From NCBI RefSeq assembly GCF_004752005.1, contig NZ_CP038493.1, forward strand, positions 620,001 through 684,000: a stretch of DNA of 64,000 nucleotides, read 5' to 3'. Source of the DNA: Thalassotalea sp. HSM 43 (GTDB lineage Bacteria > Pseudomonadota > Gammaproteobacteria > Enterobacterales > Alteromonadaceae). A model generated the notes under the pieces. The model did not search any database. It was given only the letters and a program-made list of their open reading frames with translations, and was not told the origin of the DNA. Positions 21,307 to 61,080 of the stretch are shown here, in pieces. The position numbers were made by a program, and so were the translations under genes. Each line of letters starts with the position of its first letter. The stretch's first letter is position 1.

Positions 21307-21356
21307 TTTACAAAAAGTAACATCTTATTACCTGTGAGTTGCGTAATGTATATACT
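21307..21356 (+). promoter_or_regulatory. Direct-repeat box and promoter of the first S8 gene
   Basis: TTTACA-AAAA-GTAACA at 21307-21322 matches the direct-repeat box seen before other genes of this region. Five bases further is a likely promoter: TTACCT at 21328-21333, a 17-base spacer and TATACT at 21351-21356. The -10 is good (5 of 6) and the -35 weak (3 of 6), as expected for a promoter that needs an activator. Confidence 0.5.
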
Positions 21357-21394
21357 CACCACACTATTGGTGAAATACGCTAATCGTTGATGCT

Positions 21395-24300
21395 GTGTCG
21401 TTAATCCGTCGATTAATTGCCAGCCGCTGGTATTTGGAGTTTAAACGCGTTGTGAATCATTCATTAATTATTGCTATTACTGCCGCATGCACCCTGACCT
21501 TTTCATCAGGCGTTGATGCAGCGAAACGAGATGTAAAAAACAGCACAACTGTTTCTGCTGCACAAAGCGGCCAAGGTCGTGATGTTGATAACTTATATGC
21601 GGTAATTCTAAAAGGTGCCCCTCTCGCACAGGCGTCTTTACAAAGCCCAGCAAGTCATAACCTTAGCAACAAAGCTCAAGGCTTAGATATCAATTCGGCT
21701 CAGGCTAAGAGCTATATACTGTCTCTTCGAAACAAACAACAGCAAGTCATTGATAGCGTTGCCAAGGTTAATAAAAACCACCAACCTAAAATCAAATTTT
21801 CATACCAGTTAGCAGTCAATGGTTTCACCCTTGTACTTAATGATGAGCAGTTACAACACATCTCGCAGCATGCGGATGTCAAATCAGTACACAAGATTCA
21901 ACCAGCGCAACTGCATACCGATGTCGGTCCACAGCAAGTTAGCGCCGATAAAGTTTGGTCAGGCTTAGACTCTGAAGTCGGCTATCAAGGTGAAGGCACC
22001 ATAGTTGGTATTATCGATACTGGGATTAATGCGCAACATCCGTCATTTGCCGAGGTCGATGCAACCGGTTACCGCCACACCAACCCACTGGGTGACGGCG
22101 TATTCCTTGGTGACTGTCAGCAATCAAGCTACCAGCGTTATTGCAACAACAAACTCATTGGTATTTGGTCTCACCCAGATATTACCAACACCACAACGTT
22201 CTCTGGCGACGACCCTATTGGTTTGGATATTCAAGGTCATGGCTCTCATGTAGCCAGTACTGCCGCCGGCAACAAGGTCAATAATGTCCCTGTCTATAAT
22301 GTGGTTGGCGATGCCACTCAAGAAACGTTTGGCAGTATTTCAGGTGTTGCACCACGTGCCAATATTGTCAGTTATCAAGTCTGTGACTTGCAAGGCTGTT
22401 GGCCAGACATCACCGCATTGGCGGTAGAGCACGCCATTGCCAATGGTATAAATGTATTAAACTACTCTATCGGTTCACCTGGATATAGCCCATGGCAAGC
22501 CATCGATGCCATGGCACTGCTTTCGGCACGTGAAGCTGGTATTCATGTTGCCACATCTGCCGGTAACAATGGTGCAGATGGCGCAGCAAGCATCAGCACT
22601 CCGGGCAACGCACCTTGGTTAACGTCAGTTGCAGCGACAACCCATGGCCGAAGTTATACCGCGAAAACCCTGACATTCGGTGGCGGCGACAGCTCATTAG
22701 CGGCGATCACCGGTTTTTCTGCAACATCAGGCGTTAATGCACAAATCATTGACGCCGCACAATTTAACAATGGTGATTGTTTATCATCATTCGGTGCCGG
22801 TACACTAACCGGCAAAGTTGTCGTCTGTCGTCGCGGCGATGTTGCTCGCGTCACCAAAGGTCTCACCGTCTCTAGAGGCGGCGCGGCTGGTATGATTTTA
22901 ATTAATACCACCGACGGTAGCCAAACCCTGCATAACGACCACCACGTATTACCTAGCGCCCATATCGGTGCCGAAGATGGACAACGTCTGGTGCAATGGT
23001 TAGCAAGCGGTGAAAATCATCGAGTGCAATTTGACGGTTCTGAGATGGTCATTGACCAAAACAGTGGCGATGTTTTAGCAGGCTTTAGCTCGCGAGGACC
23101 TGAACCTGCATTTGCCGGTTATTTAGTGCCACATGTATCAGCGCCCGGCGTTGATATATATGCCGCCAATGCCGAGCGTCAACCCTACACCAACCCAAAC
23201 GTTGATTTTCCAGCCTATCGTTTTGAAAACGGCACATCAATGGCCAGCCCACACGTGGCGGGTGCATTGGCTCTATTGCATGGTTTAAAACCGGACTGGT
23301 CACCTGCAATGGCACAATCTGCATTAATGATGACTGCCGATAACAGCGTAAAAAGCGAAGATGGTAGCGTACTTGATTACTACGATTTTGGCGCAGGTCG
23401 ACTCAATGTCGCTAATGCCGTGCGTTCTGGATTAGTGCTTGATGAAAATTACGACAATTATTTAAATGCCGATCCAGATTTTGGTGGTGATTTAAGCACC
23501 TTAAACCTGCCTGCTATGGTTGCCCAAAATTGCATGATCCGTTGCTCGTGGACGCGTACCCTAACCGCGACAGAGGCCGCGTCATGGCAAGTACAAACAT
23601 CATCAGCAACATCGCAAATTAATGTACAGGTATCGCCAAGCAACTTTAGTTTGGCAAAAGGCGAGTCGATAACCATAACCATCAGCGCTGAAATAAACGA
23701 AAGCTATCAAGGTGGGGATATAACTGCAGCAATCACCTTGCAAACCGATAACAGCAATCTCGTTGATGCGACCTTGCCTTTAATTGCCTCGTTCAGAAAA
23801 GGTCAGGTACCTGACAATATTCGTGTTACAGCGAATTCAGACAAGGGCGCACAAATCATTCCGGGCGTTGTTACGGTTGGTGTAAATAATATTGCAGCGA
23901 CTCACTACGCCTTAAACGCCATTGATAGCTACAGTAAAATGCTAAGCCGCGATGACGGTGATGACAGCCCGTGGCCGTACAACGTGTTTAACGATCGTGA
24001 CTCACTGTTTTCTATGCCATTGAGCATTGGCTTTAATACCCGCTATCTCGAGGTAAATATCTTATCGACCTCGTCACCAGATTTGGATTTATACATTGGC
24101 TACGATCTGGACTTTGATGGCCGCCCAAGTGCCGATTATGAGATGTACGACTTGATTTGTTCATCGGCATCAATCATCACCCTTGAGTCATGTAAGTTAG
24201 AGTTTCCTCCGGTTGGCAACTACTTTTTGGCCATTCACAATTACGGTGACTATAACAACCCAAGCAATACCACAGATGAGATTGAATTTGAAGTGGTCAT

Positions 24301-25264
24301 GGTCACTGAAGATCAGGGCCAAGTAACGTCGAGCTTTGTTGTCGCGCCGTTGCCATACCAAGACATACAGTTTCAATTACATTGGGACGCGCAGATGCAG
24401 GCCGATAGCGAGTACATCACTGCGGTAGATTTGGCCAGCGGCAATGCTGGTGCTGGTATTAACGACATTGCCTTTTTCCCGGTACGTATTAATCGTTCAC
24501 AACAGTCTTTATCACTGGCGTTAAGTAAAACCGATTTGGATGCGCAAGAAGTCTTTGATGTCAGCGTTAACATCGACGCCAATAACAGTAATAAAAATAA
24601 AGACTACCAAATCGACATTGAATTGCCGCAAGGGTTTAGCTATGTATCGGCGACTGGCGAAACCCAGCTAAATGGCAACATGGTTTCTATTCAAACCCAA
24701 CAAATGGCTGGCGCTAGCGCCAAATCTATTACCCTAACCTTGCAGGCACCTGAGCTTACTCGAGGCGATAGTTTTGTTATTGACTACCAATATGACGACG
24801 GTTTTGTGCAATACAATGAAAGTACTAGAGAAATCATGGTCTTTGCCTATCCAAGTGCGAAAGTAAATGGTGAAGAGATATTGGCTTTGACCGTCACCGC
24901 TGGCGAGCAGGTCACCTTAAGCGCAGCCCAGAGCACCAACCCTAATCCTGGTAGTGATTTAATCTATCAATGGCAACAAGTATCTGGTCCACTATTGTCG
25001 CTAACCAATACCAACCAAGAACAACTGACGTTTACCGCGCCAGATGTGAGCAGCAACAGCAGTATTGAAATACAACTTATCGTCAATAGTCGCGGTAGAG
25101 AGTCGCAAACTACGACCACGATAACGGTGCAACCAATCGCTCAACAACCGGCGCCAAAGAGTGATTCATCTGGCGGTGGCAGTACATCGCATTGGCTATT
25201 AATGTTACTCAGTGGCTTACTGCTTGTACGAGTCTCTAAAAAAACAAAAGCAGAGCACATATAA
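21395..25264 (+). CDS. Secreted S8 subtilase with PA domain and GlyGly-CTERM tail
   Basis: A 1289-residue subtilisin-family endopeptidase. After a signal peptide (SLIIAITAACTLTFSSGVDA) comes an I9-type propeptide (about 60-170). The catalytic triad is Asp208 (IIDTGIN), His282 (GHGSH) and Ser615 (NGTSMASPHVAG); the oxyanion Asn lies in SAGNNG. A PA domain (about 455-545) is inserted between His and Ser. A CMIRCSWTRT segment follows the protease domain, then beta-sandwich domains and a REJ/PKD-like domain (about 1165-1245). The end is a GlyGly-CTERM tail: SSGGG, hydrophobic helix, basic end. It should be secreted and processed by rhombosortase. GTG 21395 starts the frame; GTG 21452 would give a more usual signal peptide. 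Confidence 0.93.
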   Translation: MSLIRRLIASRWYLEFKRVVNHSLIIAITAACTLTFSSGVDAAKRDVKNSTTVSAAQSGQGRDVDNLYAVILKGAPLAQASLQSPASHNLSNKAQGLDINSAQAKSYILSLRNKQQQVIDSVAKVNKNHQPKIKFSYQLAVNGFTLVLNDEQLQHISQHADVKSVHKIQPAQLHTDVGPQQVSADKVWSGLDSEVGYQGEGTIVGIIDTGINAQHPSFAEVDATGYRHTNPLGDGVFLGDCQQSSYQRYCNNKLIGIWSHPDITNTTTFSGDDPIGLDIQGHGSHVASTAAGNKVNNVPVYNVVGDATQETFGSISGVAPRANIVSYQVCDLQGCWPDITALAVEHAIANGINVLNYSIGSPGYSPWQAIDAMALLSAREAGIHVATSAGNNGADGAASISTPGNAPWLTSVAATTHGRSYTAKTLTFGGGDSSLAAITGFSATSGVNAQIIDAAQFNNGDCLSSFGAGTLTGKVVVCRRGDVARVTKGLTVSRGGAAGMILINTTDGSQTLHNDHHVLPSAHIGAEDGQRLVQWLASGENHRVQFDGSEMVIDQNSGDVLAGFSSRGPEPAFAGYLVPHVSAPGVDIYAANAERQPYTNPNVDFPAYRFENGTSMASPHVAGALALLHGLKPDWSPAMAQSALMMTADNSVKSEDGSVLDYYDFGAGRLNVANAVRSGLVLDENYDNYLNADPDFGGDLSTLNLPAMVAQNCMIRCSWTRTLTATEAASWQVQTSSATSQINVQVSPSNFSLAKGESITITISAEINESYQGGDITAAITLQTDNSNLVDATLPLIASFRKGQVPDNIRVTANSDKGAQIIPGVVTVGVNNIAATHYALNAIDSYSKMLSRDDGDDSPWPYNVFNDRDSLFSMPLSIGFNTRYLEVNILSTSSPDLDLYIGYDLDFDGRPSADYEMYDLICSSASIITLESCKLEFPPVGNYFLAIHNYGDYNNPSNTTDEIEFEVVMVTEDQGQVTSSFVVAPLPYQDIQFQLHWDAQMQADSEYITAVDLASGNAGAGINDIAFFPVRINRSQQSLSLALSKTDLDAQEVFDVSVNIDANNSNKNKDYQIDIELPQGFSYVSATGETQLNGNMVSIQTQQMAGASAKSITLTLQAPELTRGDSFVIDYQYDDGFVQYNESTREIMVFAYPSAKVNGEEILALTVTAGEQVTLSAAQSTNPNPGSDLIYQWQQVSGPLLSLTNTNQEQLTFTAPDVSSNSSIEIQLIVNSRGRESQTTTTITVQPIAQQPAPKSDSSGGGSTSHWLLMLLSGLLLVRVSKKTKAEHI

Positions 25265-25448: not shown

Positions 25449-25464
25449 TTTACACTTTTTAACA
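25449..25464 (+). promoter_or_regulatory. Direct-repeat box before the first poly-Gly lipoprotein gene
   Basis: TTTACA-CTTT-TTAACA, identical over 16 bases to the box at 43699 and differing by one base from the two boxes near 60.8 kb. The second half could serve as a -35 element. The region downstream holds only weak -10 candidates (TAACTT at 25481-25486). Confidence 0.5.
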
Positions 25465-25548
25465 ACTAGCGACAGTTCGATAACTTACTCTGGTTTGTGT
25501 CAAAAACCATGTCCCCTGGCTAATAACAATAATTTTAGGGGCTAAAAA

Positions 25549-28328: not shown

Positions 28329-29774
28329 TTATAGCGCCTCGAATAGCACCCAAAACTCCTGCCACATACTTCTAGAGTCAATGGCCTGATCTCGTATTTG
28401 CTGCAATTGTTGCTGAGAATACCAAGTGCCATTTTTAACCACTGCGTCCGGCTCTTGTAATACGCTTAAATCCTTTATTGGATTTGATTTTGAATAGATA
28501 AAGTCCGCTCGATAGTTTGCTGCAACCGAGCCAATTTGGCTCGCCATATTTAGCGCTTTCGCCGGATTAGTGGTTGCTGCCTGCAAAACCTCATAGGGGG
28601 TTAACCCGGCTTGCTGTAAAAGCTGCATTTCATGATGGGTGGCGATGCCATGTGGCGACAACAAGACTCCAGAGTCAGAGCCAACCAATAAAGGCACGCC
28701 ACTTTGATGCAGTTGTTTGGTGATGGATATTAAAAAATTCAGTGTTTTTCTATTGTGTGCCGCCATATCGTCAGAGGCATTTAGCCAACGTTTGACCTGA
28801 TTATTTTTGGTTTCAAGGCGGATAATATCAGAGGTATAGTGTTGTGGCGTTTTGCTAAGATGATCCTGTTTGTCGCTACTTAACTTAGTCAGTTGCTGAA
28901 AAATATTCAGGGTTGGTGTGATGGCCACCTCAGTTGCCTTTAGCTCGGCAATAATCTGCGGTAATAGATCTGCGTCAAACTGATGATTTAGCGGCCCTTG
29001 ATAAATATCTTCTACATGCTCAAAAGACTGTAATCCGGTTAATGCAGACACTGGCATGGTACCTGATGCGTGCGGGCCATGTTTAGCAATAGGCATATTG
29101 AGCTTTTGCCCTTCCTCGACAATGGCGGTTAATGCTTGTTGATTAAGGTTTCCGTAGGCCTTTATTACATCGTACCCTTGCCGATGATAGGCTCTAACAG
29201 CCTCTCGAGCTTGCGCTGCTGTTGTCACGCTATGGTGCAAATAGGCATCCTCATAGGCAGAAATGATCGGGCTGCTGACAGTTGACGTGCTGCCAATTAA
29301 GCTGCCAGCGTTTACTTGCTCACGCCAAACCAATTGCTCAGCAACGCCATTCATAATGCGCACATGAGTGACGCCATGACTCAGCGTTAACGCGTACGAT
29401 GCTTTTTCATATATATGCACATGCATATCGATAAGGCCAGGGGTGAGGTAGCCACCGTTACCATCAATGTGAGTAAGCTCAGTTTGGCTGTTACTTGGTA
29501 ACTCATCGCTAACATCACTAACATGACTAACATTGTTAATGTCGGTGATAGCGGTGATCACACCGTTTTCAACGGTGACGATTTTGTCTCGATGAATGGT
29601 TTGCTTTTCAACATCAACGATATGCACGTTACTGAGCACAAAGCCGTTATGGGCAGAGGGATTTTCTTTGTTTGTGGTGTTGGTTGTGGTGTTGGTTGTG
29701 TTGCTGGTATTAGCGCTGTTTTGGGCACTGCAGCTTGCGGTACAGAATAATAATATGACGATAAAATATTTCAT
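28329..29774 (-). CDS. Lipoprotein amidohydrolase (imidazolonepropionase/prolidase-like)
   Basis: A 481-residue metal-dependent hydrolase of the amidohydrolase superfamily. Visible ligand motifs are His118 and His120 in GLIDMHVH, DVIKAYG (candidate carbamylated Lys), AKHGPHASG, SFEHVED and LVGSDSGV (Asp). The N-terminus is a lipoprotein signal (ILLFCTASC), then a low-complexity Asn/Thr linker encoded by a tandem repeat. Members of this group include Xaa-Pro-type dipeptidases and cyclic-amide hydrolases, so a peptide or amino-acid derivative outside the cytoplasm is a plausible substrate, which suits the neighbouring peptidases. AAGGAG lies 7 bases before the ATG. The substrate is not determined. 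Confidence 0.85.
   Translation of the reverse strand: MKYFIVILLFCTASCSAQNSANTSNTTNTTTNTTNKENPSAHNGFVLSNVHIVDVEKQTIHRDKIVTVENGVITAITDINNVSHVSDVSDELPSNSQTELTHIDGNGGYLTPGLIDMHVHIYEKASYALTLSHGVTHVRIMNGVAEQLVWREQVNAGSLIGSTSTVSSPIISAYEDAYLHHSVTTAAQAREAVRAYHRQGYDVIKAYGNLNQQALTAIVEEGQKLNMPIAKHGPHASGTMPVSALTGLQSFEHVEDIYQGPLNHQFDADLLPQIIAELKATEVAITPTLNIFQQLTKLSSDKQDHLSKTPQHYTSDIIRLETKNNQVKRWLNASDDMAAHNRKTLNFLISITKQLHQSGVPLLVGSDSGVLLSPHGIATHHEMQLLQQAGLTPYEVLQAATTNPAKALNMASQIGSVAANYRADFIYSKSNPIKDLSVLQEPDAVVKNGTWYSQQQLQQIRDQAIDSRSMWQEFWVLFEAL
29509..29535. repeat. 9-bp coding tandem repeat in the amidohydrolase gene
   Basis: CTAACATCA, CTAACATGA and CTAACATTG are adjacent 9-base units that encode a repeated three-residue pattern (VSH, VSD-like) in an N-terminal loop. 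The unit is a multiple of three, so it keeps the frame. Confidence 0.75.
29674..29709. repeat. 12-bp coding tandem repeat in the amidohydrolase linker
   Basis: GTGGTGTTGGTT occurs twice in a row (29674-29685 and 29686-29697), then a degenerate copy GTGTTGCTGGTA. On the coding strand it makes the Asn/Thr-rich linker behind the lipid anchor; copy-number change would lengthen the linker without a frameshift. Confidence 0.85.
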
Positions 29775-29866
29775 GGTTAACTCCTTAAACTCGATGTTTG
29801 AAGGTTACCGTGAATAAATTATTCGATCGTCCAATGTCATGTTTTTATCCGTCCAGTTTCTTGATT

Positions 29867-30964
29867 CTAGACCTCATTCGCCGATTTATATTGGCTTGGC
29901 GTTTGACCTGTGATGTGTTTGAACACCTTATTAAATGAGGCTTTCGAGCTAAATCCGGCATCTAGTGCAATGTCCGTCAAAGATTGTTTGTTGGCTTGGC
30001 GCAAGGCTTGACAAACATAGTCGACACGGTAGCCATTAATGTATTCATTAAAGGACTTTTTCGCACAGACATTGATCGCACGTGAGATATCTCGGGTTTG
30101 CAAACCCGTTAATTCGCTTACATCATTAAGTGTTAACCGTGGTGTCAAATACCAAGCATTGTTGCTCACTAAACGGTCTAATTCAACAAAGATTGCCGCA
30201 TAATCCCCTTCAGATTGCTGTGCACTCTCAGGCTGTTCTACAGGGTTTAGTGTTGCGTTTTCTGCGCGGCTTTTTACTCGATTTTCTTCCGTATTTTCTA
30301 CTGGTTTTTCTGATGCGTCTTGGCCAGTACGTGGCATCTTGTTCTGCAGTTGCAGTTTGACAATAATTAACATGGCGCTGATAAGCCAAATAAGGTTATT
30401 TAAACCTTGCCCAAACACATTAAGTTGCATCGGAATGGCATGTTGTAAGTTTAACCGCAACAGGTCGAGCAGATTAAACGTGGCGGTGATGGCTAAAATC
30501 CACATAAGCCAAGTTAAAGAAAACTCATCAGAGTCGGAGCGTTGCTGATCGAGTAAACGTTTATAGTTGAGCAACAACAGTACCGTTAACGACGCATACA
30601 CTATACGCCACACCGTGCCGATAGCGATGACCACTTCAACATACGCGGTGACCATTAAAACCGGCAATACCGGAAGTAAGTGCAGCAATTGCGATCTATT
30701 TAACCGCTTTTCAATGAGTAGCTTAATCGCCAAATAGCTGGCAGGCCCAAATAACATAATAAACACTGGGCTTATCAAATATATATCACGAGTAAGTCCT
30801 GTCTCTTCCATGATATTGATGCAAGAAGCAATTGCCGTCATCAATAGCAATAAGGCTACACCGCGATATTCATTGCCTTTGCTTTGCCATAGCAAAACCG
30901 CCCCCAAAATACCTATGGTGGTGATACCAGCCTGAATCAGATTAACAAAATTTAATTGTTCCAT
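29867..30964 (-). CDS. Membrane-bound AraC-family transcriptional regulator
   Basis: A 365-residue protein. Residues 1-210 contain about seven hydrophobic segments, a membrane sensor domain. A charged linker follows (about 215-250), then a C-terminal AraC-type double helix-turn-helix (about 270-362) with RLTLNDVSELTGLQTRDISRAIN and LTDIALDAGFSSKASFNKVFKHITGQTPSQY. Such regulators sense a signal at the membrane and bind DNA from there. The gene lies 92 bases upstream of the amidohydrolase gene on the same strand, so that gene is a likely target or co-transcribed partner. Wider control of the peptidase genes is possible but not shown. Confidence 0.9.
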   Translation of the reverse strand: MEQLNFVNLIQAGITTIGILGAVLLWQSKGNEYRGVALLLLMTAIASCINIMEETGLTRDIYLISPVFIMLFGPASYLAIKLLIEKRLNRSQLLHLLPVLPVLMVTAYVEVVIAIGTVWRIVYASLTVLLLLNYKRLLDQQRSDSDEFSLTWLMWILAITATFNLLDLLRLNLQHAIPMQLNVFGQGLNNLIWLISAMLIIVKLQLQNKMPRTGQDASEKPVENTEENRVKSRAENATLNPVEQPESAQQSEGDYAAIFVELDRLVSNNAWYLTPRLTLNDVSELTGLQTRDISRAINVCAKKSFNEYINGYRVDYVCQALRQANKQSLTDIALDAGFSSKASFNKVFKHITGQTPSQYKSANEV

Positions 30965-50292: not shown

Positions 50293-53200
50293 CTAAATCT
50301 GAGCCTTGCTGGCGCGCATACGCGCCAGCAAAGTTAATAGCAAAAGCGATAACCAACTAAGGCCACCACCGCTGGATACATTGGACTCTCGTGGTTCTAC
50401 GGTTACGGTTGCTATTGCCGTATCGCTTGCACTGCCATCGGTTACCGTCACCAAGAACTCGAAGTCTTGTGTGTCGTCAACGTTTGGCGCATTAAAGCTA
50501 AGCACTTGCGTGCGCGCGCCTTGCATTTGCACCGCATCACCATTGGTTTGCTGCCAACTGAACAGTAACGCATCAAAATCGCCATCTTCAGCTAAGGCTT
50601 CAAGTTCAACCCGATCACCTTCGGTAACGGTGAGATTGATACTTTGCACCGTTGGCGCAATATTGACGTCGATAAGGCTAACAATCACCTCTTTGCTACG
50701 GGCATTGTTGTGCGAGTCGGTTGCGGTCACTTCAAACATCAATTCTTCATTGCGATTGATTACGGGAGCAACAAAGCTCATTTGCGTGGAATTGGCATTA
50801 AGCAGTTGCGCAGATGGACCGGATATTTGTGTCCAACTGACGCTGACATCATCATTATCAACATCAACCACATCGGCACTTAGGCTAATGGTTGCTTGTT
50901 GACCGTTAGCACGCTCAACAAATCGCTGGCGATTATCAACACGGATCATTGGCACACGATTACCACATGCTTCATGTTGCTCAGCAACTGCCGCCGAAAA
51001 TGCTGGCGCTTGGGTGTTTTCAAAGACAAAGTCATCAATAAACCAACCCGCGGTTGGCGCTTGCTCATCGGTACCAATAGCAAAGCGTACCCGCACTGAT
51101 TGACCATTTAGCTCGCCTTCAGGAATGACGATGCGTACATCTTCACCACCAGGCAGTTGACCGGCATAGCCCATACGATGGCCTAATGGGTTTTGACTTT
51201 CTGCCACTTCTTTGGCAAATGTGCCGTGAATAACCGCATCATATGGGTCTGACATCAGTGCATTGAATTCAGTAATGTCGCGCCATTCGCCGCCATTAAC
51301 ACTGATTTCGATAACACCGCCATCCCAATACTCTAGTGTCCAAGGCGCATCTTCCGGCGCACCTGCTGCTCGGTATTCAGCGACTTCAAACTCATAAATA
51401 TGGAAAAATTCAAAGGCAAAATCACCGCTCTCATTGACGATAACGTCTGGTGATTGCAGGCTGGTTAATACTCGAGTTGGACTTGCCGCGCCCCAGAACA
51501 TTTGTCCTTGACGTAAACCAAGCGTATTGGCACCAAAACCGTTATCTAATACCCAAGGGAACACCGCATTACCATAAGCGGCAGGAGACACGTTGTCCGC
51601 CGTCGTGGTCCAATCGGATTCGGATGAGGTATTGTCTTCAAAACGCGTTAATTGGTGTTCGTTTTTGACGATATCGGTTTCAGCGCTGGTCCAGGCTGTA
51701 CCAACAGGTGGTACAATGGCGTCAGCATTATCACTGTCAAAGCGAATATCAAAACGCACTGTCGATAACGGCTCGGCGCTGTGTAAAGTCACCTCAAATG
51801 GGAATTCAATCACTTCACCGTAATTGTTTTCATTGAATTGTATTGGTAATCGGCCATCCGTTAATTCGACCCCATCGACGGATAAGGTAATATCAGAGAT
51901 GCTATCAATCACCGCATGCACACCCGTCAATGGCATATTGCTTAGGTTTTTAAGGTGCAAGGTAATTTGCATGGTCTCATTAACATCTAATGAACCATCG
52001 ATATCACAGTAAAATCCTGAGTTGCCCAAATATTGGTAGTCGGCGGTAACATTATCGACCACAAACGATGGGTATTGCGTGGCAAAACCTTCACGTACGT
52101 TGTCAAATAAGAAATCGGTGCGATCCGGTGCTACCGCATCCAAACCAAAACCTCGTTTGGCGAATGCTGTTAGCATGATGTCGAAGTCTCGACTATCGGT
52201 TGCGGCGGTTACCGCCAGCAAAGCATCGCGAGCTTCGGTAAAGGTTGGCCAATACGGTGTAATTTTCAAACTGGCGACCAAGTACTCCTTCATGCGTTTC
52301 TCAACCATGTCGAAACTCAAATCACTGCGTTCATTGTGCAAGGCAACATAGACTTCCCAAAGTGCCGCCGTCCAAACTTCACCGGCATTATGCACCTCGT
52401 TATTCGGCACCGGATGTTCAGCATGGAATGCCCCCTGCTGGTGATCAGGCAACTGCGCGCTAAAGGCGATATGACCTAAGGTTAAGCCGTTAACATTCAT
52501 GTCTGTGGTGTATGGGTATCGACGAATACCTTCGGCAAACGATGCATTACCAACCAGGTTACGACCTACAAAGGTCGACATTGGAATATGACCTGCAAAT
52601 TGCTCGTTGCCGACAATATGACGATCTTCTTCTTTGAGCATCAACATCAAGGCCACAAAGTCAGACCAACCTTCACCTAGTGACGCACCCTGCCATTGCA
52701 TTAAGCCCCAGGCATTGTGAATCAAGCGATTGGTTAAATAATGACCCCACTCGTGGGCAACGATACTGGTATCAAAAGCAGAGTGGTTTTGATCGGTTTC
52801 GACTTCAACGTCAATACGAACTTTTTCACCCGCTTGCATCGACAGGTAAACCGGCTCAGCATGCTCATAGGATAAGAACACACCGGGAATTTCCATATCC
52901 GAGGCATCATCATTCGGACCTAACGCCATATTGATGGTACCGCCAGCGTTACCGGCTGCGTTAACTTGACCTTCTTTGACATGATTGGTCATAAGATAAG
53001 CCGTTGCCCCTGCGGCTTGTGCGTGCAATGCTTTTTGGAAGAAATTACAGTTACCGCGGCGAATCAATGCCGTTTTACCGCGCAATTCTTCTGCATTGAT
53101 AGCCGGTTCACACAGATCTTGTCCGTCTACCCCTTCACCGTCATAAGCAATAACCAATTCATTTTCATTGATATCCGTCGTATCTTTATCATCTTCGATG

Positions 53201-54789
53201 GTAAACGTAGACGGACCAAACACGGAACGGCCAAAACTTGGCACCCAAAAGAACTTTTCCCCGTTAGCATCGGTCGCGTCGTCTTCGCTGTAATACTCAT
53301 CCAGCATACCTCGAATTTCAAAACCTAATTCATATAAGCCCCATGGATACATGCGCATGATAGGTACTTGGCCATCTGGTGGCGTCGCCATTGATGCGTT
53401 ATTGGCTGAGTTGAAATCTACACGAGCTTCAATTGGGTCACGATCTAGGCCACCACGACCATAGTTATCAAATTGCGCGTTACCTGACTGCTCATCAAAT
53501 CCTGAGTCATAAAACCAGTCATGCAAGAAGTTATTCACGTAAAACATCGACGTCATGGCCGCTTTTACGTTGTTATCTTCGCTTGCCGGTGCACGGTAAT
53601 TGTATGTATAACTGAACGTACCCGCCGACGAGGTCATTAAGTAATAATCACCGTTTTCAATACGTTCGTTATCCAAGTCTTCTACTGGATTAAAGCCTTC
53701 TGGCGGCACCTTATCAACGAACGCCCAAACATTATTGCCTTGTGCCCAGTTTGAACTTTCAGGCAACCATGGATCTTGCGTACTGACACCGGCATGATCG
53801 ATGGTAACTAAGTTACTGTCGTGCAAATGTTGCTGATAATCGCCATAGCTTTGTGGGTCAAGACCGATAGGGTATGGCGATACTTCAATGGTGGTTGGCG
53901 AGTCGTATGGCTTAAATGGCGACTCGGTTTCCGCATACAGACGGTAACGGAAACTATGATCCGCTTCCAATTTGCCTTTGTGCAGAATCCGCTGATCGAT
54001 TGCAGAAACGATATAACCCATCATTTCACTGCGCGTTTCGTTTTCCACCATGCGTTGTAAGTTGATCATAAAGGCCGGCTCTACGCCCTTCGCCTTAGGG
54101 AAATAGATAAACTGCGCCGCAGATTTACCTAGGCCCCAACTTTCAGAGTCAATAGCATCCTGTTGTTGGTTGATCTCGAACTCATCAAATTTGCCTCGAC
54201 GCCCCAGAGCTGTTAATGCTGAGTCGCTAATGCTAACACCGGCGTCGCGAAATGCAGCAACAACAGAGGCTTTCGCCGCATCGCCTGGTAATGACGATAA
54301 TGACGCCGCTTCACCGACAATCGGTGCAAAGGTGCCGCTGCTGGCAACAGCACGTAAGTTTTGATCCATGACCACATTTATTTGCGAACTGAATACATCA
54401 ACACCATTGACCTGTTGCTGATAGCGCATGATGATTGGGCCATTGGCACTTGTATGCACGGTGCTGACTTTCGCTTGGCTAGCACCATTATTAATAAAGC
54501 CGTGCTGACTGGCGACACTGGCAAAATGATGTGACGCGGCGCGTTCAATTTGCTGTTGTTTATCGGCAACAAAATTTAAATGATTTTGACTTTGCTGCGC
54601 ATCAAACCACTGAAACGTGGCACGTTGTTGGCTATCAAACTGACTTTGTAATTGATAAGGCTTAGCAACACCTGTGTGCTGCTGGTTATGGTTTGCAACC
54701 TGATTAAAGTCGTGGGAGATTGCACCAACGCCTGACACTGTCAGGGCGCTGGCAATGGCCAGCGTTAATGGTAATTTTTTCTTCAACAT
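50293..54789 (-). CDS. Secreted M36 (fungalysin-like) metallopeptidase with GlyGly-CTERM tail
   Basis: A 1498-residue precursor. After the signal peptide (LTLAIASALTVSGVGA) comes a fungalysin/thermolysin-type propeptide (about 25-220). The M36 catalytic domain holds the zinc motif His679-Glu680-x-x-His683 (AHEWGHYLTNRLIH) and the downstream GEVWTAALWEVY, which supplies the third ligand Glu. A PA domain (about 550-650) lies inside the catalytic region. C-terminal parts are beta-sandwich domains, two REJ/PKD-like repeats (about 1290-1460) and a GlyGly-CTERM tail (VSSGGGLSWLS). M36 enzymes are usually far shorter. ATG 54789 has GGA 7 bases upstream; a TTG at 54801 is less likely. Second gene of its operon. 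Confidence 0.93.
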   Translation of the reverse strand: MLKKKLPLTLAIASALTVSGVGAISHDFNQVANHNQQHTGVAKPYQLQSQFDSQQRATFQWFDAQQSQNHLNFVADKQQQIERAASHHFASVASQHGFINNGASQAKVSTVHTSANGPIIMRYQQQVNGVDVFSSQINVVMDQNLRAVASSGTFAPIVGEAASLSSLPGDAAKASVVAAFRDAGVSISDSALTALGRRGKFDEFEINQQQDAIDSESWGLGKSAAQFIYFPKAKGVEPAFMINLQRMVENETRSEMMGYIVSAIDQRILHKGKLEADHSFRYRLYAETESPFKPYDSPTTIEVSPYPIGLDPQSYGDYQQHLHDSNLVTIDHAGVSTQDPWLPESSNWAQGNNVWAFVDKVPPEGFNPVEDLDNERIENGDYYLMTSSAGTFSYTYNYRAPASEDNNVKAAMTSMFYVNNFLHDWFYDSGFDEQSGNAQFDNYGRGGLDRDPIEARVDFNSANNASMATPPDGQVPIMRMYPWGLYELGFEIRGMLDEYYSEDDATDANGEKFFWVPSFGRSVFGPSTFTIEDDKDTTDINENELVIAYDGEGVDGQDLCEPAINAEELRGKTALIRRGNCNFFQKALHAQAAGATAYLMTNHVKEGQVNAAGNAGGTINMALGPNDDASDMEIPGVFLSYEHAEPVYLSMQAGEKVRIDVEVETDQNHSAFDTSIVAHEWGHYLTNRLIHNAWGLMQWQGASLGEGWSDFVALMLMLKEEDRHIVGNEQFAGHIPMSTFVGRNLVGNASFAEGIRRYPYTTDMNVNGLTLGHIAFSAQLPDHQQGAFHAEHPVPNNEVHNAGEVWTAALWEVYVALHNERSDLSFDMVEKRMKEYLVASLKITPYWPTFTEARDALLAVTAATDSRDFDIMLTAFAKRGFGLDAVAPDRTDFLFDNVREGFATQYPSFVVDNVTADYQYLGNSGFYCDIDGSLDVNETMQITLHLKNLSNMPLTGVHAVIDSISDITLSVDGVELTDGRLPIQFNENNYGEVIEFPFEVTLHSAEPLSTVRFDIRFDSDNADAIVPPVGTAWTSAETDIVKNEHQLTRFEDNTSSESDWTTTADNVSPAAYGNAVFPWVLDNGFGANTLGLRQGQMFWGAASPTRVLTSLQSPDVIVNESGDFAFEFFHIYEFEVAEYRAAGAPEDAPWTLEYWDGGVIEISVNGGEWRDITEFNALMSDPYDAVIHGTFAKEVAESQNPLGHRMGYAGQLPGGEDVRIVIPEGELNGQSVRVRFAIGTDEQAPTAGWFIDDFVFENTQAPAFSAAVAEQHEACGNRVPMIRVDNRQRFVERANGQQATISLSADVVDVDNDDVSVSWTQISGPSAQLLNANSTQMSFVAPVINRNEELMFEVTATDSHNNARSKEVIVSLIDVNIAPTVQSINLTVTEGDRVELEALAEDGDFDALLFSWQQTNGDAVQMQGARTQVLSFNAPNVDDTQDFEFLVTVTDGSASDTAIATVTVEPRESNVSSGGGLSWLSLLLLTLLARMRASKAQI

Positions 54790-54825
54790 AATCTTTTCCA
54801 AATGTCTTCTTAGCTTCTTGCAATT

Positions 54826-54857: not shown

Positions 54858-57800
54858 TTATTTGATCGTCAGGGTACGTTTCCTGAAGATGCTAAGAAGG
54901 GTGAAAAGTGATAACCAAAGCACGGCACCGCCGCTTGGTTCTTTGCGTTGTGTGGACGCATCTTCTTCTGCTTGGGTAACAGAGACCGTAAATGATTTAC
55001 TTACCTCAACCTGACCATCGGTCACATGCAATTGATAAACATGCTCACCTGCTGGCAAGTTCGATAAGTTAATTGAGGCATTATTAATTTGCGACTGGTC
55101 AATATATTCACCTGACCAGGTATAGATTAATTGATCGCCATCTTTGTCCGTTGCAAAGGCAATAAGCTCGACAAATTCATCACTCATGATGGCAAAGCTG
55201 TCCTGTTCATAAAACAATTCAGGTGCATCATTGATGGCATCGACGTTCACTTCAAAACTGGCATGAACCACATCATTAGCGTTGCTATTTGATACCAACT
55301 GTACCGATATGACCGCAGGTGACGTAGTGTAGTAGTCGGCGTCACTTTGAATACTGATTTGCAGCTGCGAGCCAACAACCGTGGCATCGGCCTGAATAAA
55401 GCGATCACTAGACTCAACATAGGCCGTAACATCGGCATCAGACAGGGCTGCGGTAACCATACGCGCTGGACTGTCTTCAGTGATGCTTAGATTTGCCAAT
55501 TGCGATAAACCAAGAGATGGCGCTACCAGTAATTGTGCACTGTTACTAAATTCGGTATTTGAACCTGAATTGGTTAAATCAAATTCGAACGTCTGACCGG
55601 CAACAGCATCATCAGGTAAGCGCACCGTAAAGCGAACTTTACCCGATTTAGCACTTGGTCCGGCGTAATCAAAACAAACCACTTTATCGCGTTTTACGGC
55701 ATTAAATATCTCTGAACGGTCTGCAGCTTTACTTGAGTTGTAGTATTCTGCACCGTGATAAACACCACCAAAGCTATTGCGATAGCCTTCATGACCAAGC
55801 AAACCAATATTGGCGCTATATAAGGCGTCGTCTAACAAGGTATCACCGTAATGCAACGTCTCGTCTTCAAAAATAATACGTTTGATGTCGCCATAAGCAA
55901 TGATCACTTCATAGTCACCAGCGCGGTTTTTCGCTTCTCCGGTTTCCATAAAGATTTGCATGTTATAACGGTCGTTACCGTAAAACTCCATTAGGCTTGG
56001 GTGAATAGACTTACCTTGGGTATTACTAAAGTAATCGTATTCGCCATTGTTCAACAAACATTGGGTGCCCACATTGCCATCTTCAAGATTGATCGATTGC
56101 TGATGCAAACAGGTTTGCTTCCAACCGGTTTGCATATTTTTATAATCGACTACGAGTTTGCTGCCAACATGGCCGACAGCAATACCAGAGAGCTCTTCAC
56201 CTTGTTCAGGGTTTGGATTAAATGGCGTAATAAACTGCTCATTAAAACCTGCTGCACGCCACAATGGCGCAATGGTATTAGACAAGTTACCGCCGTTTAA
56301 CCCGCCACTATGGGCAAAATTAAACAAATCGCTGAAGTTTGGTGTTCCGGTGCCTAATGGGTTCGCCCCGGCAAAGTTTTGAAAATCAATAAAACCATTG
56401 CCAAACACATACATATAACGGCCACGAGCGTAATCACTGTTACCGAAAAATGACACCCACGGGGTGCTTATATCGGAGTCGGCAAAAACCTCTTGCAGAT
56501 CAATAGTGACATGCTCGCGGTCAATGTATTGTTGACCATCTGCGTCCACCGTTGCCATCCAATTAAACGGCCCCCACTGATCGAAATGCACTCTTGCTGC
56601 CCAATCTTTTTCAGACTCCAACACGCCATCTTCATCGATACGGCGAGGGTTTGAAATAATGGTACGAGCAATCGGTGACAATAAGTAATGCTCATCCGCT
56701 TGTTCATCAAGACGCATGGCGCTGCCGGTGATAGGCGTCATACCTAATTCAAGGTATTTACCGTGACTTTGACCATCGACTTCTGGGGTACGACACATAT
56801 CATCGTTATCACTGGTGGTGATAACGTAGTCTCGAGCAAGCCCCTTGGCGCTGGCGATTGAACCAAAGATACGGAATTGCTCACTGGCCGTTTGTACGGC
56901 AAGTTGCAAGTGGCTATTGGTCTCTGGAATGATGCTGCCAACCAATTCAACTCCTGCCGGTAGCATGGTGGTTAAATTGATGGACTGGGTCGCGTCCGAT
57001 AGATTTTCTTTAAAATGAATTTCCATCTCCACTTCGGCGCCAGCAACAATATCTTCTGGGCGAGCTTTGCTGGTTAATGTGGCAATATCATTGGCACGAG
57101 TTAAATTCAAATTAACCGTCTTGCTGTCATCAACCGCATTAAAAGCGGTAAATACAGTTGCGCCTGGCGCTAATGAGGCATCCCAGTGCACCGTCACCTC
57201 TTTGCTCACCGTATCTGCGGTTAAGAAGATATTGTTCGCCGGTTGACCGCTTACCACACCAGAATGGGTTTTAATGGTTGTTGTCAGCTGCTCTTTAAAG
57301 AACTCAGTGTATTCGCGACTAAAGCCACTAGCCCACTGATACATAACCCAATAGTCACCTGCCTCAGGGTCGGTGATACTGCAGAAGTTATTAGAGCCTG
57401 GGGTGTCATCGTTTGATGACATCGGTGGCGCGAAATCAGAGATACATAACAATTCTTCTCTAAAATCCACTCGTGAGTTTTTATTTAAATCACGACCTAC
57501 CGCCACTTTTACTGCATTACGACGACGGTTTTCAGTAAGGTTACGAACCCCTACTTCTTGTGCTTCAGCAAATAATCGCTTGCTACCCTGTTCGACTCGC
57601 AACCATTCAATGTGCGCGGTTTGATCGGCCATGTGCTGCTCAACATCAAACAAAGTAAATTCACAAAACTGTGGGTGATTCAAATAACAACTCATGTCAT
57701 CTAAACTGTGGATTGGCACAATTGCGGTCTCAACTGGGGCTGATACCACAGGCTGATATGCAGTGAACAATGCTGTTGTCACATCGTCGGTGGTGAACAA

Positions 57801-60647
57801 AGGCAGTACTTTAGAGCCTTTATTTAAGGCAATATCGACACGATGCATGTCATTACCGATATCTAACTTGGATTCAACGGCAAGTGGCAGATGTACTTCT
57901 GGAATGGTTTTATCATCCGCGAAGAACACCAAATCACCACCGGTTAAATTACCTTCGTTATTGATGATATCTGTACTGTCTTCATCGTATTGATTTTCCC
58001 AGTTATCGAAATCCCAGCCAAAACGCGCCGATTCATCAACAACGGTAAAATCAATGGTGATATCAATGCTCTCACCTTTTTTCAAGGTGAAGTTGGCAGG
58101 GCTAACTGTCGCCGTTGCCGAGGCATAATCCATGAAGATTTCTGAACGCCAGCTACCATCTCGGGTGGCCTTAAAAGTACGAGTTAAGCTACATTTACCG
58201 TAACAAGCACGTTCAATAACCGCTGGCATATTTAAGTCTGAAACATTATGTGCTTGAGGGTCTGCAGCCATAAAGTTTTCAACACTTTCATGCATCACCA
58301 AGCCGGTATTAATGGCTCGTTCAACATTAATTAAACCAGCACCCATGGTGTAAGCATCTGGCAGCCCATATATCTCGGTATTGCCAATATGAATAGCCGG
58401 TTGCGCGGTAAGCGTTAAGGCAGAAATAATTTCCGAAGGTGACCAATCTGGGTGAGCTTGTTTTACTAAAACAGCAGCACCAGAAACCACGGCAGTCGCG
58501 GTCGAGCTTCCTGAACGAGGTAACCAATCAGAGCTATTGCCAAATTCATTAAACGGGCGTTGGTCAGCAGAGGCGGCTAATACGTTGACCGCAGGTGCAA
58601 CAACACTTGGTAGCATGTACTCACCATTTATTCCCGCACCTGGACCTGCCGCGGTATTATTGCTGTACATCATGCCCAGTATGGTTGGGTATCTAAATTC
58701 AGACAGTGGATTAATGGTTGCCTCAACCAGTAAATTCATCTCATTTGAGGTAAGCACCCAATCGTAGATTACATTGGAATCATCTTGCGGCGTTGAGCGC
58801 ATAAAGCTGACAGGAAACGCCTGATTAGTATAATTTACGGTCAAATTAGGAGTGGCAAAATCACTCGGTACAATCAATAAACCACCGGCACCTGCAAGCT
58901 CTGCCTGCTCAGCCATGTGCTGATAGGCTTGATAAGCATTAAACCCTGGTAATAAATCGGTATTGCCCTCGCCGTTGGCAAGACAAACCAATATTTCATT
59001 ACTGGCAAAAACATTTTCTGGTAAATCAATACACGAGGCGATATTCAGCTGTTGCTCAGGTGAATACAATGATGTGTCAATTTTTGCTGCTGCAACCACA
59101 GGGTTACCTGAGAAAGAGGCGCCGACATAACCTGTATTGGCACTGTATTCGGTAATAGCCACCAATCCAGCAAAATCTAAGCGTTTAGGAATACTTTCTG
59201 GATCGCCGCCGCCAACCTCGGTGACGGCCGTGCCGACCACATAAGATTCGCTTTTATCTGCCGCACCAACACTCAGTAGCCAAGGCGATGGATGATCACC
59301 TAATCCGCGACCGTAGTTATCACCATTACCGACTGCGGTAACAACAACGATGCCTTCTTTATGGGCATTTAAAAACGCCAGTTCAACCGCGTCTTGGTAT
59401 GGGTTTTGGTTACCACCGGCGGCTTTCGCGATAGAGAAGTTAATCACATCGACATCATCGTTAATGGCGTCTTCGATGGCTTGCAACACTACTTCATCTG
59501 GGCAACTGACATCATTGCCAATCGGATCACAGACTTGGTAAGAAATGATTTGCGCATCCGGTGCAATACCAGCGACATCGTGTTTAGACACATTGAGCGA
59601 TACGCCATCGGCTTGCCATTGTTTGTATGACGGGTAATGCAAACTGACATCGGTAAGTTGATTACCAGCAATCAGACTGGCGACATGGGAGCCATGGCCA
59701 TTATAATCTTCGCCATCTTGATAAACGAACTCGTGCTCGGCACCGTTATACAAGGTCAATGCCGGGATATCGCCATTGCCCAAGGTGACATCTTTAATCT
59801 GTTGATAGGCGCGAATACCAATCAATTTATCATTACAACGCTGTTCAGCGTCAGCAGAACTGGCACAAACGCCAACGTTGTCTGTATTAGGAAAGTTTGA
59901 AATTAAGCTGGTTTGCTGATCAAATGGCTGATCTGCAAATGATGGATGGTCTGAATTAATACCGGTATCTAATACCGCCACCAACATACCTTGACCACGA
60001 TACTGCTCACTCGAAAAGCCCGATAAACCATTCCAAATGCTATCCGCGCCAATATCTTTACCTGTGCTGTAGGACTGTAGGCGAGACGCACCTAACTGCA
60101 TCACTTTAGCCACGCTTGGCAAGTTTGAAATATATTTTGCTAGCTCAGTATCGACTTCAATGGTGAAACCGTTTAGCGCCTTACTGAATTGGTGCCTAAT
60201 ATTGACCGAGTGGCCTTGGCGATTAATTTGTCTGACTAAATCTTGCTGTTCTGCAAGAATGTAGGCTTCGTACTCAGCGCGGGTTTTATAGCTGTGAGCA
60301 AGCGTTTGCAGTTGGCTTGATTGCGCCAGTTTTTGACTGCCACTATTGGCTAGAATATGCGAATCAAAATGACTGCCCGATGGCTGCTTCAACATCACCA
60401 CAAAACGTTGTTTACCAACAAGATTTTGTTCTGCAACAAATTTACTTTGCTTGCCATTATCAATCACGTGGTTAACCCTGCCGTGATTGGCGGTAAGCTC
60501 GCTGTTTTGCAGCAGTTTTTGCGTAACGATGGCTTGACCTGTTACTTGTTTTAGCTCGGTTTCATTCTCTGAGCTGGTCACAGTCGCACCGACGCCAATT
60601 GAATAACCTGCCGCGCATATGGCAGCAAGTATGCGATTAAACTTCAA
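54858..60647 (-). CDS. Giant secreted S8 subtilase with divergent Ser motif and GlyGly-CTERM tail
   Basis: A 1929-residue subtilase. I place the start at TTG 60647: it opens directly into a signal peptide (KFNRILAAICAAGYSIGVGA) and has AAGGGG 6 bases upstream; an earlier in-frame start at 60701 would put 18 polar residues before it. The triad is Asp227 (VLDTGIN), His318 (GHGSHVASL) and Ser715. The Ser motif reads SGSSTATAVVSG, not GTSMA[ST]P, so Met and Pro are replaced. The oxyanion Asn is in VGNGDN, and a PA-like segment lies between His and Ser. A CYGKCSLTRT module, CRTP module, beta-sandwich repeats and a GlyGly-CTERM tail (EPSGGAV) follow. First gene of the S8 - M36 - receptor operon. 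Confidence 0.9.
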   Translation of the reverse strand: MKFNRILAAICAAGYSIGVGATVTSSENETELKQVTGQAIVTQKLLQNSELTANHGRVNHVIDNGKQSKFVAEQNLVGKQRFVVMLKQPSGSHFDSHILANSGSQKLAQSSQLQTLAHSYKTRAEYEAYILAEQQDLVRQINRQGHSVNIRHQFSKALNGFTIEVDTELAKYISNLPSVAKVMQLGASRLQSYSTGKDIGADSIWNGLSGFSSEQYRGQGMLVAVLDTGINSDHPSFADQPFDQQTSLISNFPNTDNVGVCASSADAEQRCNDKLIGIRAYQQIKDVTLGNGDIPALTLYNGAEHEFVYQDGEDYNGHGSHVASLIAGNQLTDVSLHYPSYKQWQADGVSLNVSKHDVAGIAPDAQIISYQVCDPIGNDVSCPDEVVLQAIEDAINDDVDVINFSIAKAAGGNQNPYQDAVELAFLNAHKEGIVVVTAVGNGDNYGRGLGDHPSPWLLSVGAADKSESYVVGTAVTEVGGGDPESIPKRLDFAGLVAITEYSANTGYVGASFSGNPVVAAAKIDTSLYSPEQQLNIASCIDLPENVFASNEILVCLANGEGNTDLLPGFNAYQAYQHMAEQAELAGAGGLLIVPSDFATPNLTVNYTNQAFPVSFMRSTPQDDSNVIYDWVLTSNEMNLLVEATINPLSEFRYPTILGMMYSNNTAAGPGAGINGEYMLPSVVAPAVNVLAASADQRPFNEFGNSSDWLPRSGSSTATAVVSGAAVLVKQAHPDWSPSEIISALTLTAQPAIHIGNTEIYGLPDAYTMGAGLINVERAINTGLVMHESVENFMAADPQAHNVSDLNMPAVIERACYGKCSLTRTFKATRDGSWRSEIFMDYASATATVSPANFTLKKGESIDITIDFTVVDESARFGWDFDNWENQYDEDSTDIINNEGNLTGGDLVFFADDKTIPEVHLPLAVESKLDIGNDMHRVDIALNKGSKVLPLFTTDDVTTALFTAYQPVVSAPVETAIVPIHSLDDMSCYLNHPQFCEFTLFDVEQHMADQTAHIEWLRVEQGSKRLFAEAQEVGVRNLTENRRRNAVKVAVGRDLNKNSRVDFREELLCISDFAPPMSSNDDTPGSNNFCSITDPEAGDYWVMYQWASGFSREYTEFFKEQLTTTIKTHSGVVSGQPANNIFLTADTVSKEVTVHWDASLAPGATVFTAFNAVDDSKTVNLNLTRANDIATLTSKARPEDIVAGAEVEMEIHFKENLSDATQSINLTTMLPAGVELVGSIIPETNSHLQLAVQTASEQFRIFGSIASAKGLARDYVITTSDNDDMCRTPEVDGQSHGKYLELGMTPITGSAMRLDEQADEHYLLSPIARTIISNPRRIDEDGVLESEKDWAARVHFDQWGPFNWMATVDADGQQYIDREHVTIDLQEVFADSDISTPWVSFFGNSDYARGRYMYVFGNGFIDFQNFAGANPLGTGTPNFSDLFNFAHSGGLNGGNLSNTIAPLWRAAGFNEQFITPFNPNPEQGEELSGIAVGHVGSKLVVDYKNMQTGWKQTCLHQQSINLEDGNVGTQCLLNNGEYDYFSNTQGKSIHPSLMEFYGNDRYNMQIFMETGEAKNRAGDYEVIIAYGDIKRIIFEDETLHYGDTLLDDALYSANIGLLGHEGYRNSFGGVYHGAEYYNSSKAADRSEIFNAVKRDKVVCFDYAGPSAKSGKVRFTVRLPDDAVAGQTFEFDLTNSGSNTEFSNSAQLLVAPSLGLSQLANLSITEDSPARMVTAALSDADVTAYVESSDRFIQADATVVGSQLQISIQSDADYYTTSPAVISVQLVSNSNANDVVHASFEVNVDAINDAPELFYEQDSFAIMSDEFVELIAFATDKDGDQLIYTWSGEYIDQSQINNASINLSNLPAGEHVYQLHVTDGQVEVSKSFTVSVTQAEEDASTQRKEPSGGAVLWLSLFTLLSIFRKRTLTIK

Positions 60648-61080
60648 GACTATCCCCTTATCATAATTATTTTGAGGTTCGACGGCGTGACCATCGACCA
60701 AGGGTGGTATTTTTTGCCTTTAACGGCTTATAAATTAGCGCCTCGATTATCGATAATGAGATGTACGAATTATGTTAAAAAGTGTTAAGCGAGTAACAAA
60801 CAGGTTAAGCAAGTGAACTTTAAAAGTCTGATGCTGATATTTTGTTAAAAAGTGTTAAACAACACATCAATAAAGCGATCACAAACCCCAGCCAAAAACC
60901 AAGTATAAGCACATGATTTAATTAGCAATTAAGTTTAAACAGCGTTATTCCTCATTGATTAATCCACGACTTATAGTGGTGCTGGCGAAAGCGAGCAGAA
61001 ATTGATTGGTTTACATTGAAGTGTCGAAAATTGGCGCTTTAAAAATAACAACAGCCAAATAATAATTAGAGGAATAATAA
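60648..61080. other. Divergent promoter region of S8 operon and third lipoprotein gene
   Basis: About 430 AT-rich bases without a gene. It contains two identical direct-repeat boxes (listed separately). No clear promoter for the plus-strand lipoprotein gene was found. Confidence 0.6.
60773..60858 (-). promoter_or_regulatory. Pair of identical direct-repeat boxes before the S8 - M36 operon
   Basis: TGTTAAAAAGTGTTAA occurs at 60773-60788 and again, identical, at 60843-60858, 70 bases apart. On the minus strand each reads TTAACA-CTTT-TTAACA and points to the S8 gene. From the proximal copy a weak TATCGA lies 17 bases downstream (60755-60750). Confidence 0.55.

Follow-up and report, generated by a model that had tools for sequence, protein, structure and literature searches.

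What switches the genes for extracellular proteolysis together is a question raised by a 64,000-nucleotide stretch of Thalassotalea sp. HSM 43 (the window; positions 620001-684000 of the 4,014,670-base chromosome, contig NZ_CP038493.1), and in our judgement the switching of secreted proteases in such bacteria, presumably marine like the genus Psychrosphaera of the same family, is poorly understood. The window holds S8 subtilases, an M36 metallopeptidase, TonB-dependent receptors and putative lipoproteins, and upstream of these units lies a 16-bp direct repeat, TTWACA-N4-TTAACA (the box; Table 1). A preliminary description of the sequence had suggested that the box serves one unrecognised regulator of the whole region. 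We consider it probable that the box is the site of an RstA-like response regulator encoded beyond the window end, which would act by class II activation on its own operon and on a secreted-proteolysis regulon.

The two pairs of identical copies listed in that description, at 25449/43699 and 60773/60843, are exact matches, four in the window against 0.02 expected from 100 shuffles. The 21307 variant and the weaker 43475 copy differ from the pattern at one and two positions, and all six sites are oriented toward their genes, as had been claimed. With up to two mismatches the window contains 34 matches against 21.8 expected, so that the class of the 43475 site is only moderately above chance; both weaker arrangements are nevertheless kept in orthologues. 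The 21307 box scores -0.9 with a matrix built from the strong sites, yet it is the top site upstream of its own S8 gene, and a -10 element stands 21 bases beyond the box (gap 21) in all three cases compared, here and in two close orthologues scoring 4.1 and 14.0. The 43475 box is kept before the orthologous TonB receptor in 5/5 species, again with a -10 at gap 21. This receptor promoter (43455-43490, minus strand) carries four half-sites, TTAACC, TTCACA, TTCGCA and ATTACA, in a 10-bp register that is likewise conserved in 5/5 species, and their number may account for the weakness of each. The third lipoprotein gene, already described as having no box of its own, has none in five of five species either (here and four relatives; best scores ≤6.0).

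Nor is the box spread over the chromosome as it would be in random AT-rich DNA. Eight of its 14 exact chromosomal matches fall inside 51 kb (645449-696608), or 1.3% of the chromosome (binomial P 2e-12), and the six outside this cluster look like background because a reversed control pattern also gives six. The fuller 16-mer TTWACACTTTTTAACA has eight matches at ≤1 mismatch, of which six lie between 645 and 722 kb, while the other two (2657648 and 2672518) precede genes whose product starts, as read from the sequence, are TonB-receptor-like. Past the window end, boxes occur at chromosome positions 689938 (weak), 692928 and 696593 on the minus strand, each preceding a putative secreted-protein gene, and at 721491 on the plus strand. 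Membership of the 689938 site (TTAACAAAAGTTAACA), with a matrix score of 3.4 and no -10 at gap 21, is uncertain.

The promoter geometry around the box is regular. We aligned 46 sites with ≤1 mismatch from five genomes; these were chosen by the box pattern, and the alignment is hence no separate test of the box. Apart from the box itself, where the choice of sites ensures it, only the next two bases and columns 37-42 (TANNNT) carry much information; the half-sites are conserved along with the T-run that separates them, and no other column exceeds about 0.4 bits. TANNNT stands at gap 21 in 18 of the 27 exact sites, at gap 16 in 6, and at any other gap from 5 to 49 in at most 4; as related species have promoters in common, these 18 do not count as independent. 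In this genome alone, five of seven strong sites have TANNNT at 21, one has GATAAT at 21 and one TAAAGT at 20. None of the 18 gap-21 sites shows a -35 element, the best match to TTGACA at spacings of 16-18 being 1 to 3 of 6 positions. Given a -10 at -12 to -7, the box would cover about -49 to -34, with its centre near -41.5. The TTWACA half-sites stand head to tail one turn apart (period 10), and the box replaces or touches the -35 region, as in OmpR/PhoB-type sites. The 10-bp direct repeat, the fixed gap of 21 bases and the absent -35 are together the features expected of a class II activator site of the OmpR family, in support of the resemblance to PhoB/OmpR-type sites noted in the preliminary description.

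The same geometry bears on a simpler explanation, in which the TTAACA half-sites simply serve strong AT-rich promoters as -35 elements, or stem from the duplication of one promoter. TTAACA does agree with TTGACA at 5/6 positions, and several of the target genes are paralogous. The optimum spacing for sigma-70 is 17, however, and 21 bases from box to -10 are too long for it; moreover, conservation takes in both half-sites and the intervening T-run and then falls away outside the box, the next two bases and the -10, and the sites precede unrelated gene families. We regard this explanation as extremely improbable.

A candidate for the binding protein is encoded 38 kb past the window end, in an operon of mipA, a DUF3019 gene, an OmpR-family response regulator and a histidine kinase. 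The box TTAACACTTTTTTACA at 721491 lies about 130 bp upstream of mipA, and a box precedes the regulator operon in 5/5 genomes having the orthologue, each time TTWACACTTTTTTACA. The regulator combines Response_reg and Trans_reg_C domains (Pfam). Against NCBIfam profiles the kinase matches RstB best (2.8e-51) and EnvZ next (2.2e-27), and since the equivalog cut-offs are missed by both proteins (149.9 versus 330 bits for RstA, 175 versus 478 bits for RstB) we term the pair RstAB-like rather than RstA and RstB. Within its genus the regulator shares 36-42% identity with the other RstA-like regulators, its DNA-binding domain is about equally similar to those of solved RstA, CpxR and OmpR, and its recognition helix DRSVDVYVSKLRKKF is close to DRSVDVAISRLRKKL of Klebsiella RstA. 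In PMC4117788, the base-contacting residues of RstA are named as Arg, Ser, Val and a fourth, Arg. When these residue numbers are placed on the alignment with Klebsiella RstA (4NHJ) by our own assignment, the regulator keeps Arg, Ser and Val and has Lys in place of the fourth Arg. The published RstA box is TACA-N6-TACA (PMC4117788), and the island sites read WACA-N6-WACA, with AACA often replacing TACA. The box can be viewed as a variant of the RstA box with the same 10-bp period; whether it should bear that name is a matter of definition.

Regulator and box also go together when 15 genomes of the genus are compared. A search with the regulator gave 28 matches, comprising 5 orthologues, 15 of a core type and 8 others. 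Four of the 14 other genomes have the orthologue, at 84-86% identity, and the rest have only matches of ≤42% (E up to 1e-40). Exact copies of TTWACANTTTTTWACA number 7, 4, 6, 6 and 7 in the five regulator-bearing genomes, 30 in all against 2 for the reversed control, and 0, 0, 0, 1, 0, 1, 0, 1, 0 and 0 in the ten others (3 in all; control 5), which corresponds to 1.37 versus 0.08 exact sites per Mb. In 27 of the 30 cases the site belongs to a single cluster per genome, 31 to 76 kb long, that includes or ends at the regulator operon, and 44/44 listed sites in the five fetched regions fall outside open reading frames (ORFs) of ≥80 amino acids (aa). The sites precede orthologous or homologous genes, so that the conservation in related strains which the preliminary description named as a check is found: the 1947-aa S8 gene with its double box and mipA have the same sites in 5/5 genomes, a lipoprotein gene (its product has 897 aa here and is matched only in part, at 28-31%, in two relatives) carries a box in 5/5, and homologues of the 864-aa lipoprotein (34-47% identity) do so in 4/4 relatives. 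A relative of the 1947-aa S8 at ≥51% identity is present in 4/4 of the other regulator-bearing genomes and in 0/10 of those without the regulator, indicating that target and regulator occur together.

This distribution helps to weigh two other candidate binders. The first is the core RstA (chromosome about 207 kb), for which the linked operon would be merely another target. The core regulator is the stronger RstA match (9.1e-78 versus 7.8e-44; helix DRSVDVRISRLRKKL), and in Photobacterium several secreted proteins are under RstAB control (PMC6491958). No box is found at the core RstAB promoter here, however, and 14 further core loci (not L054) score ≤5.2 against ≥14 for accepted sites; the ten genomes that have core RstAB but lack the linked regulator contain the three exact boxes counted above. 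The core identity of the 15 matches rests on their N-termini (14/15; L054 is cut by a contig end) and on a profile search of the copy here. We think this alternative unlikely. The second candidate is a general EnvZ/OmpR or CpxR system. OmpR and CpxR, too, recognise direct repeats spaced about 10 bp apart, and both have DNA-binding domains about as similar as that of RstA, OmpR keeping all four contact residues compared. A general site is difficult to reconcile with exact boxes that are concentrated at a single locus and all but missing from 10/15 genomes of the genus, and CpxR keeps 0/4 of the contact residues; this possibility appears very unlikely.

Because core RstA and OmpR could also fit the box, the assignment to the linked regulator rests on linkage, on the box at its own operon and on co-occurrence, and several observations count against it. 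The NCBIfam profile for OmpR (1.6e-44) comes marginally ahead of that for RstA (7.8e-44) on the regulator; OmpR retains one contact residue more than the regulator does; and a core RstAB pair, whose recognition helix differs little from that of Klebsiella RstA, is present in 15/15 genus genomes. In this genome the operon stands apart from the other boxes, with about 25 kb of unrelated genes in between, and neither 21307 nor 43475 would be accepted as a site by its sequence alone. The excess of one-mismatch sites is smaller than that of exact ones, 103 (control 56) in the five genomes and 90 (control 76) in the ten. The five regulator-bearing genomes may be one clade, and the lack of boxes in the other ten is not independent evidence, because the main S8 target is missing there too. 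Finally, a box-like TTAATATTTTTTAACA precedes an M16 peptidase gene of G006, a genome without the regulator, and in G003 and G007 sites with a -10 at gap 21 precede a HAD-phosphatase gene that is not obviously proteolytic.

We hypothesize that the RstA-like regulator, as a dimer of the OmpR/PhoB family, would bind the box head to tail with one subunit per TTWACA half-site, both subunits lying on one face of the helix beside a promoter with a -10 and lacking a -35, and would recruit RNA polymerase from about -49 to -34. It would thereby drive its own operon (autoregulation) along with the S8, M36, TonB receptor and Ig-domain lipoprotein genes. The sites, their conservation, the promoter geometry and the genomic association with the operon are observed; direct binding by this regulator, activation rather than repression, and autoregulation are what we infer. 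The notion of one regulator for the region is supported, with qualifications: there is an OmpR-family operon with its own box in 5/5 genomes, but it lies outside the window, and the third lipoprotein gene and an AraC/amidohydrolase gene pair are not covered. What emerges is a candidate regulator together with a list of its putative targets and a 16-bp operator set in a defined promoter geometry; if the proposal is correct, a whole protein-scavenging programme may be switched on together.

Parallels to parts of this arrangement have been described. The RstA box and RstBA of Enterobacteriaceae (PMC4117788) share tandem half-sites with a 10-bp period, an OmpR-family dimer, an RstB-like kinase and nearly the same helix; here, by contrast, the half-site is TTWACA with a T-run between the halves, the operon includes mipA and the DUF3019 gene, and the targets are secreted peptidases and TonB receptors. 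In Vibrio cholerae, CarRS (also RstAB or VprAB) is likewise an RstAB-type pair with a linked gene for an OmpV/MipA-family barrel, ompV; chromatin immunoprecipitation sequencing (ChIP-seq) places CarR at the promoter region of ompV, and CarR also binds an RstA-like box at tcpP (PMC9178039, PMC5636140, PMC13413815). The ompV and almE promoters, both bound by CarR, are up under defensin (PMC9178039). In that locus ompV follows carRS and virK stands where DUF3019 stands here, and the known CarRS regulon comprises virulence genes and genes for the modification of lipid A, not extracellular proteolysis; a joint action of OmpV with CarRS has been doubted in V. mimicus (PMC13413815). This locus type, an RstAB-like pair with a MipA barrel, occurs here and in 11 further loci of the genus, the operons being predicted from gene order. 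In Pseudomonas aeruginosa, MipA-MipB sense polymyxin and are controlled by ParRS (PMC10936184), so that a MipA barrel and a second envelope protein are again coupled to a two-component system, with a regulon that differs from the one proposed here. RstAB of Photobacterium damselae is needed for several type II-secreted proteins, but the predicted proteases found there were RstAB-independent (PMC6491958); the wording RstA box or motif is absent from the text of PMC6491958. Given the MipA-MipB/ParRS and CarR/ompV reports it is plausible, if speculative, that a cue from peptides or from the envelope is sensed by the MipA barrel together with the DUF3019 protein and relayed to the kinase. Among the open-licence literature matches listed we recognised no account of the box, the regulon or the cassette described below.

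All eight other regulator matches in the genus adjoin S8 paralogues, and three further cassettes were found from the S8 side. These 11 loci, fetched through response regulator or S8 matches and thus not a blind sample, have mipA, DUF3019, response regulator and histidine kinase in order beside an S8 gene of about 1600-1830 aa, one S8 being cut by the stretch end (among the cassette loci are L244-L246, L249-L252, L255, L256 and L258). The S8 gene is divergent from mipA in nine and on the kinase side in L255 (with a single small ORF intervening) and L258; at L247, L253, L254, L257, L259 and L260 there are S8 paralogues that lack the operon. No strong TTWACA box was seen in the 11 cassettes. Upstream of mipA they instead carry TGTACA-N4-TGTACA (≤2 mismatches), at 15 places in 4,210 bp and in 9/11 cassettes (not L252 and L258), against 7 places in the remaining 169,790 bp of the loci (30 versus 14 with both strands counted); this motif was picked after viewing the regions upstream of mipA and is a description, not a blind test. 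In L246 (5405-5581) there are three near-identical repeats of type AGTACATCCATGTACG. The recognition helices of 9/11 cassettes have Gly at the position aligned to the RstA Val, a residue reported to contact the base 5' of TACA (PMC4117788). L245 and L255 have Leu, and the island regulator keeps Val, its box having T at the corresponding base. L258, with a Gly helix yet a GATACA-type repeat, is an exception that runs counter to this correspondence. In a phylogenetic tree the island regulator falls in a clade with 9/11 cassette regulators and two from the wider family, apart from the core regulator (local support 0.99).

In the wider family, 116 of 147 genomes, representing 47 of 52 genera, have DUF3019. 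From the match list we hand-picked 20 loci at roughly even steps, and 19 have mipA, DUF3019, response regulator and histidine kinase together (two with inserted genes; L303 lacks both signalling genes), which ties the DUF3019 family to a recurrent four-gene signalling operon. A perfect TACA-N6-TACA lies upstream of mipA in 7/20 in forward orientation (shuffle mean 0.27, maximum 2) and in 3/20 in reverse; at 7/8 matches the count is 12/20 (mean 5.2, maximum 10) and 4/20 in reverse. This enrichment indicates an RstA-type box at the operon in part of the family loci. An S8 gene is adjacent in only one of the 20 (L308), and no S8-model match was seen among the 80 named loci examined outside the genus. 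Within the loci sampled, the protease link is thus largely confined to this genus. We found no DUF3019 paper in the open-licence literature searched; the predicted fold for four relatives is beta-rich, with a mean predicted local distance difference test (pLDDT) score of 67, and has no PDB match at E 0.001 or better.

A wider reading, which we offer tentatively and would sooner doubt than assert, is that these are parallel sensor-protease cassettes. MipA and DUF3019 would report peptides to their own RstAB-like pair, which would switch its own subtilase through its own box (TGTACA, GATACA or TTWACA), the cassettes being kept apart by matched helix changes; in the lineage of the window one cassette would have expanded into a dispersed S8/M36/TonB/lipoprotein regulon, making digestion self-reinforcing. 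If so, the peptides would be substrate fragments or hostile antimicrobial peptides. The paralogous cassettes offer a natural series for the joint divergence of RstA-like regulators and their boxes.

Table 1. Boxes, genes and regulator operon. Positions are those of the window unless marked as chromosomal.
Feature	Position	Strand	Basis or detail
Variant box TTTACAAAAAGTAACA before first S8 peptidase	21307-21322	+	one mismatch; -10 TAATGT at 21344-21349
S8 subtilase, I9 and PA domains, 1289-aa ORF	21395-25264	+	Pfam
Box TTTACACTTTTTAACA	25449-25464	+	exact; -10 TACTCT at 25486-25491
Putative lipoprotein, He_PIG Ig-like domain, 864 aa	25549-28143	+	Pfam
Calx-beta protein, last gene of TonB receptor unit	31181-33634	-	Pfam; gene order
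S8 subtilase, 2158 aa, second gene of TonB receptor unit	33661-40137	-	Pfam
TonB-dependent receptor, first gene of TonB receptor - S8 - Calx-beta unit	40207-43341	-	Pfam
Weak box TTAACCTTTTTTCACA before TonB receptor	43475-43490	-	two mismatches; -10 TAGTCT at 43448-43453
Box TTTACACTTTTTAACA, identical to 25449 copy	43699-43714	+	exact; -10 TAAAGT at 43736-43741
Putative lipoprotein, He_PIG domain, 767-aa ORF	43748-46051	+	Pfam
TonB-dependent receptor, CarboxypepD_reg domain, third gene of S8-M36-receptor unit	47101-50259	-	Pfam
M36 fungalysin-type metallopeptidase, second gene of S8-M36-receptor unit	50293-54801	-	Pfam
S8 subtilase, 1947 aa, first gene of S8-M36-receptor unit	54858-60701	-	Pfam
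Proximal box TTAACACTTTTTAACA of S8-M36-receptor unit	60773-60788	-	exact; -10-like GATAAT at 60746-60751
Distal box TTAACACTTTTTAACA, identical to 60773 copy	60843-60858	-	exact; possible -10 TAAAGT at gap 20
Third putative lipoprotein, PKD and Lcl_C domains	61081-63849	+	Pfam
Operon mipA - DUF3019 - OmpR-family response regulator - histidine kinase	chromosome 721636-724795		38 kb past window end
Response regulator gene	chromosome 722851-723600		about 39 kb beyond window

The multi-gene units of the window would be operons, judged by gaps of 26 to 69 bp. Translation of the first S8 ORF may really begin at a GTG 57 bp downstream, and ATG 43780 is the likely start of the 767-aa lipoprotein ORF. 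The C-terminal part of the S8 at 21395-25264 resembles, below cut-offs, the profiles of rhombosortase- and myxosortase-dependent M36 peptidases, hinting at surface sorting of the enzyme. Inside the island an amidohydrolase gene and an AraC-type regulator gene (28329-30964, minus strand) have no BLAST counterpart in the fetched stretches of four relatives, and the AraC regulator (29867-30964) was dismissed as common regulator on this ground.

Some sites elsewhere were not counted as belonging to the regulon. The M16 peptidase gene (chromosome 3012634) has island copies with a box in four relatives, whose second copies lack one; it was not accepted as a sure member, given the box-like site in G006 and a copy here without a -10 at gap 21. 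The HAD-phosphatase sites of G003 and G007, a similar one here at 3263316 and the 575693 site lie outside the protease units and are not claimed as regulon. A box or near-box without a -10 at gap 21 lies 550-580 bp before a gene of 361-366 aa in three genomes (G003:C1:1659421, G005:C1:2962072 and G007:C1:1433132). G007 has a second S8-M36-TonB cluster elsewhere in its genome (L261, L262; S8 39% identical), and an exact box at 2012014, about 26 kb away, does not obviously point to it. A small SelT/SelW/SelH (Rdx) family protein is encoded between the lipoprotein and receptor units of the window (46695-46982, plus strand), and a gene just past its end (L037 507-2468, minus strand) has DUF6851 and VCPO second-domain matches, resembling vanadium haloperoxidases.

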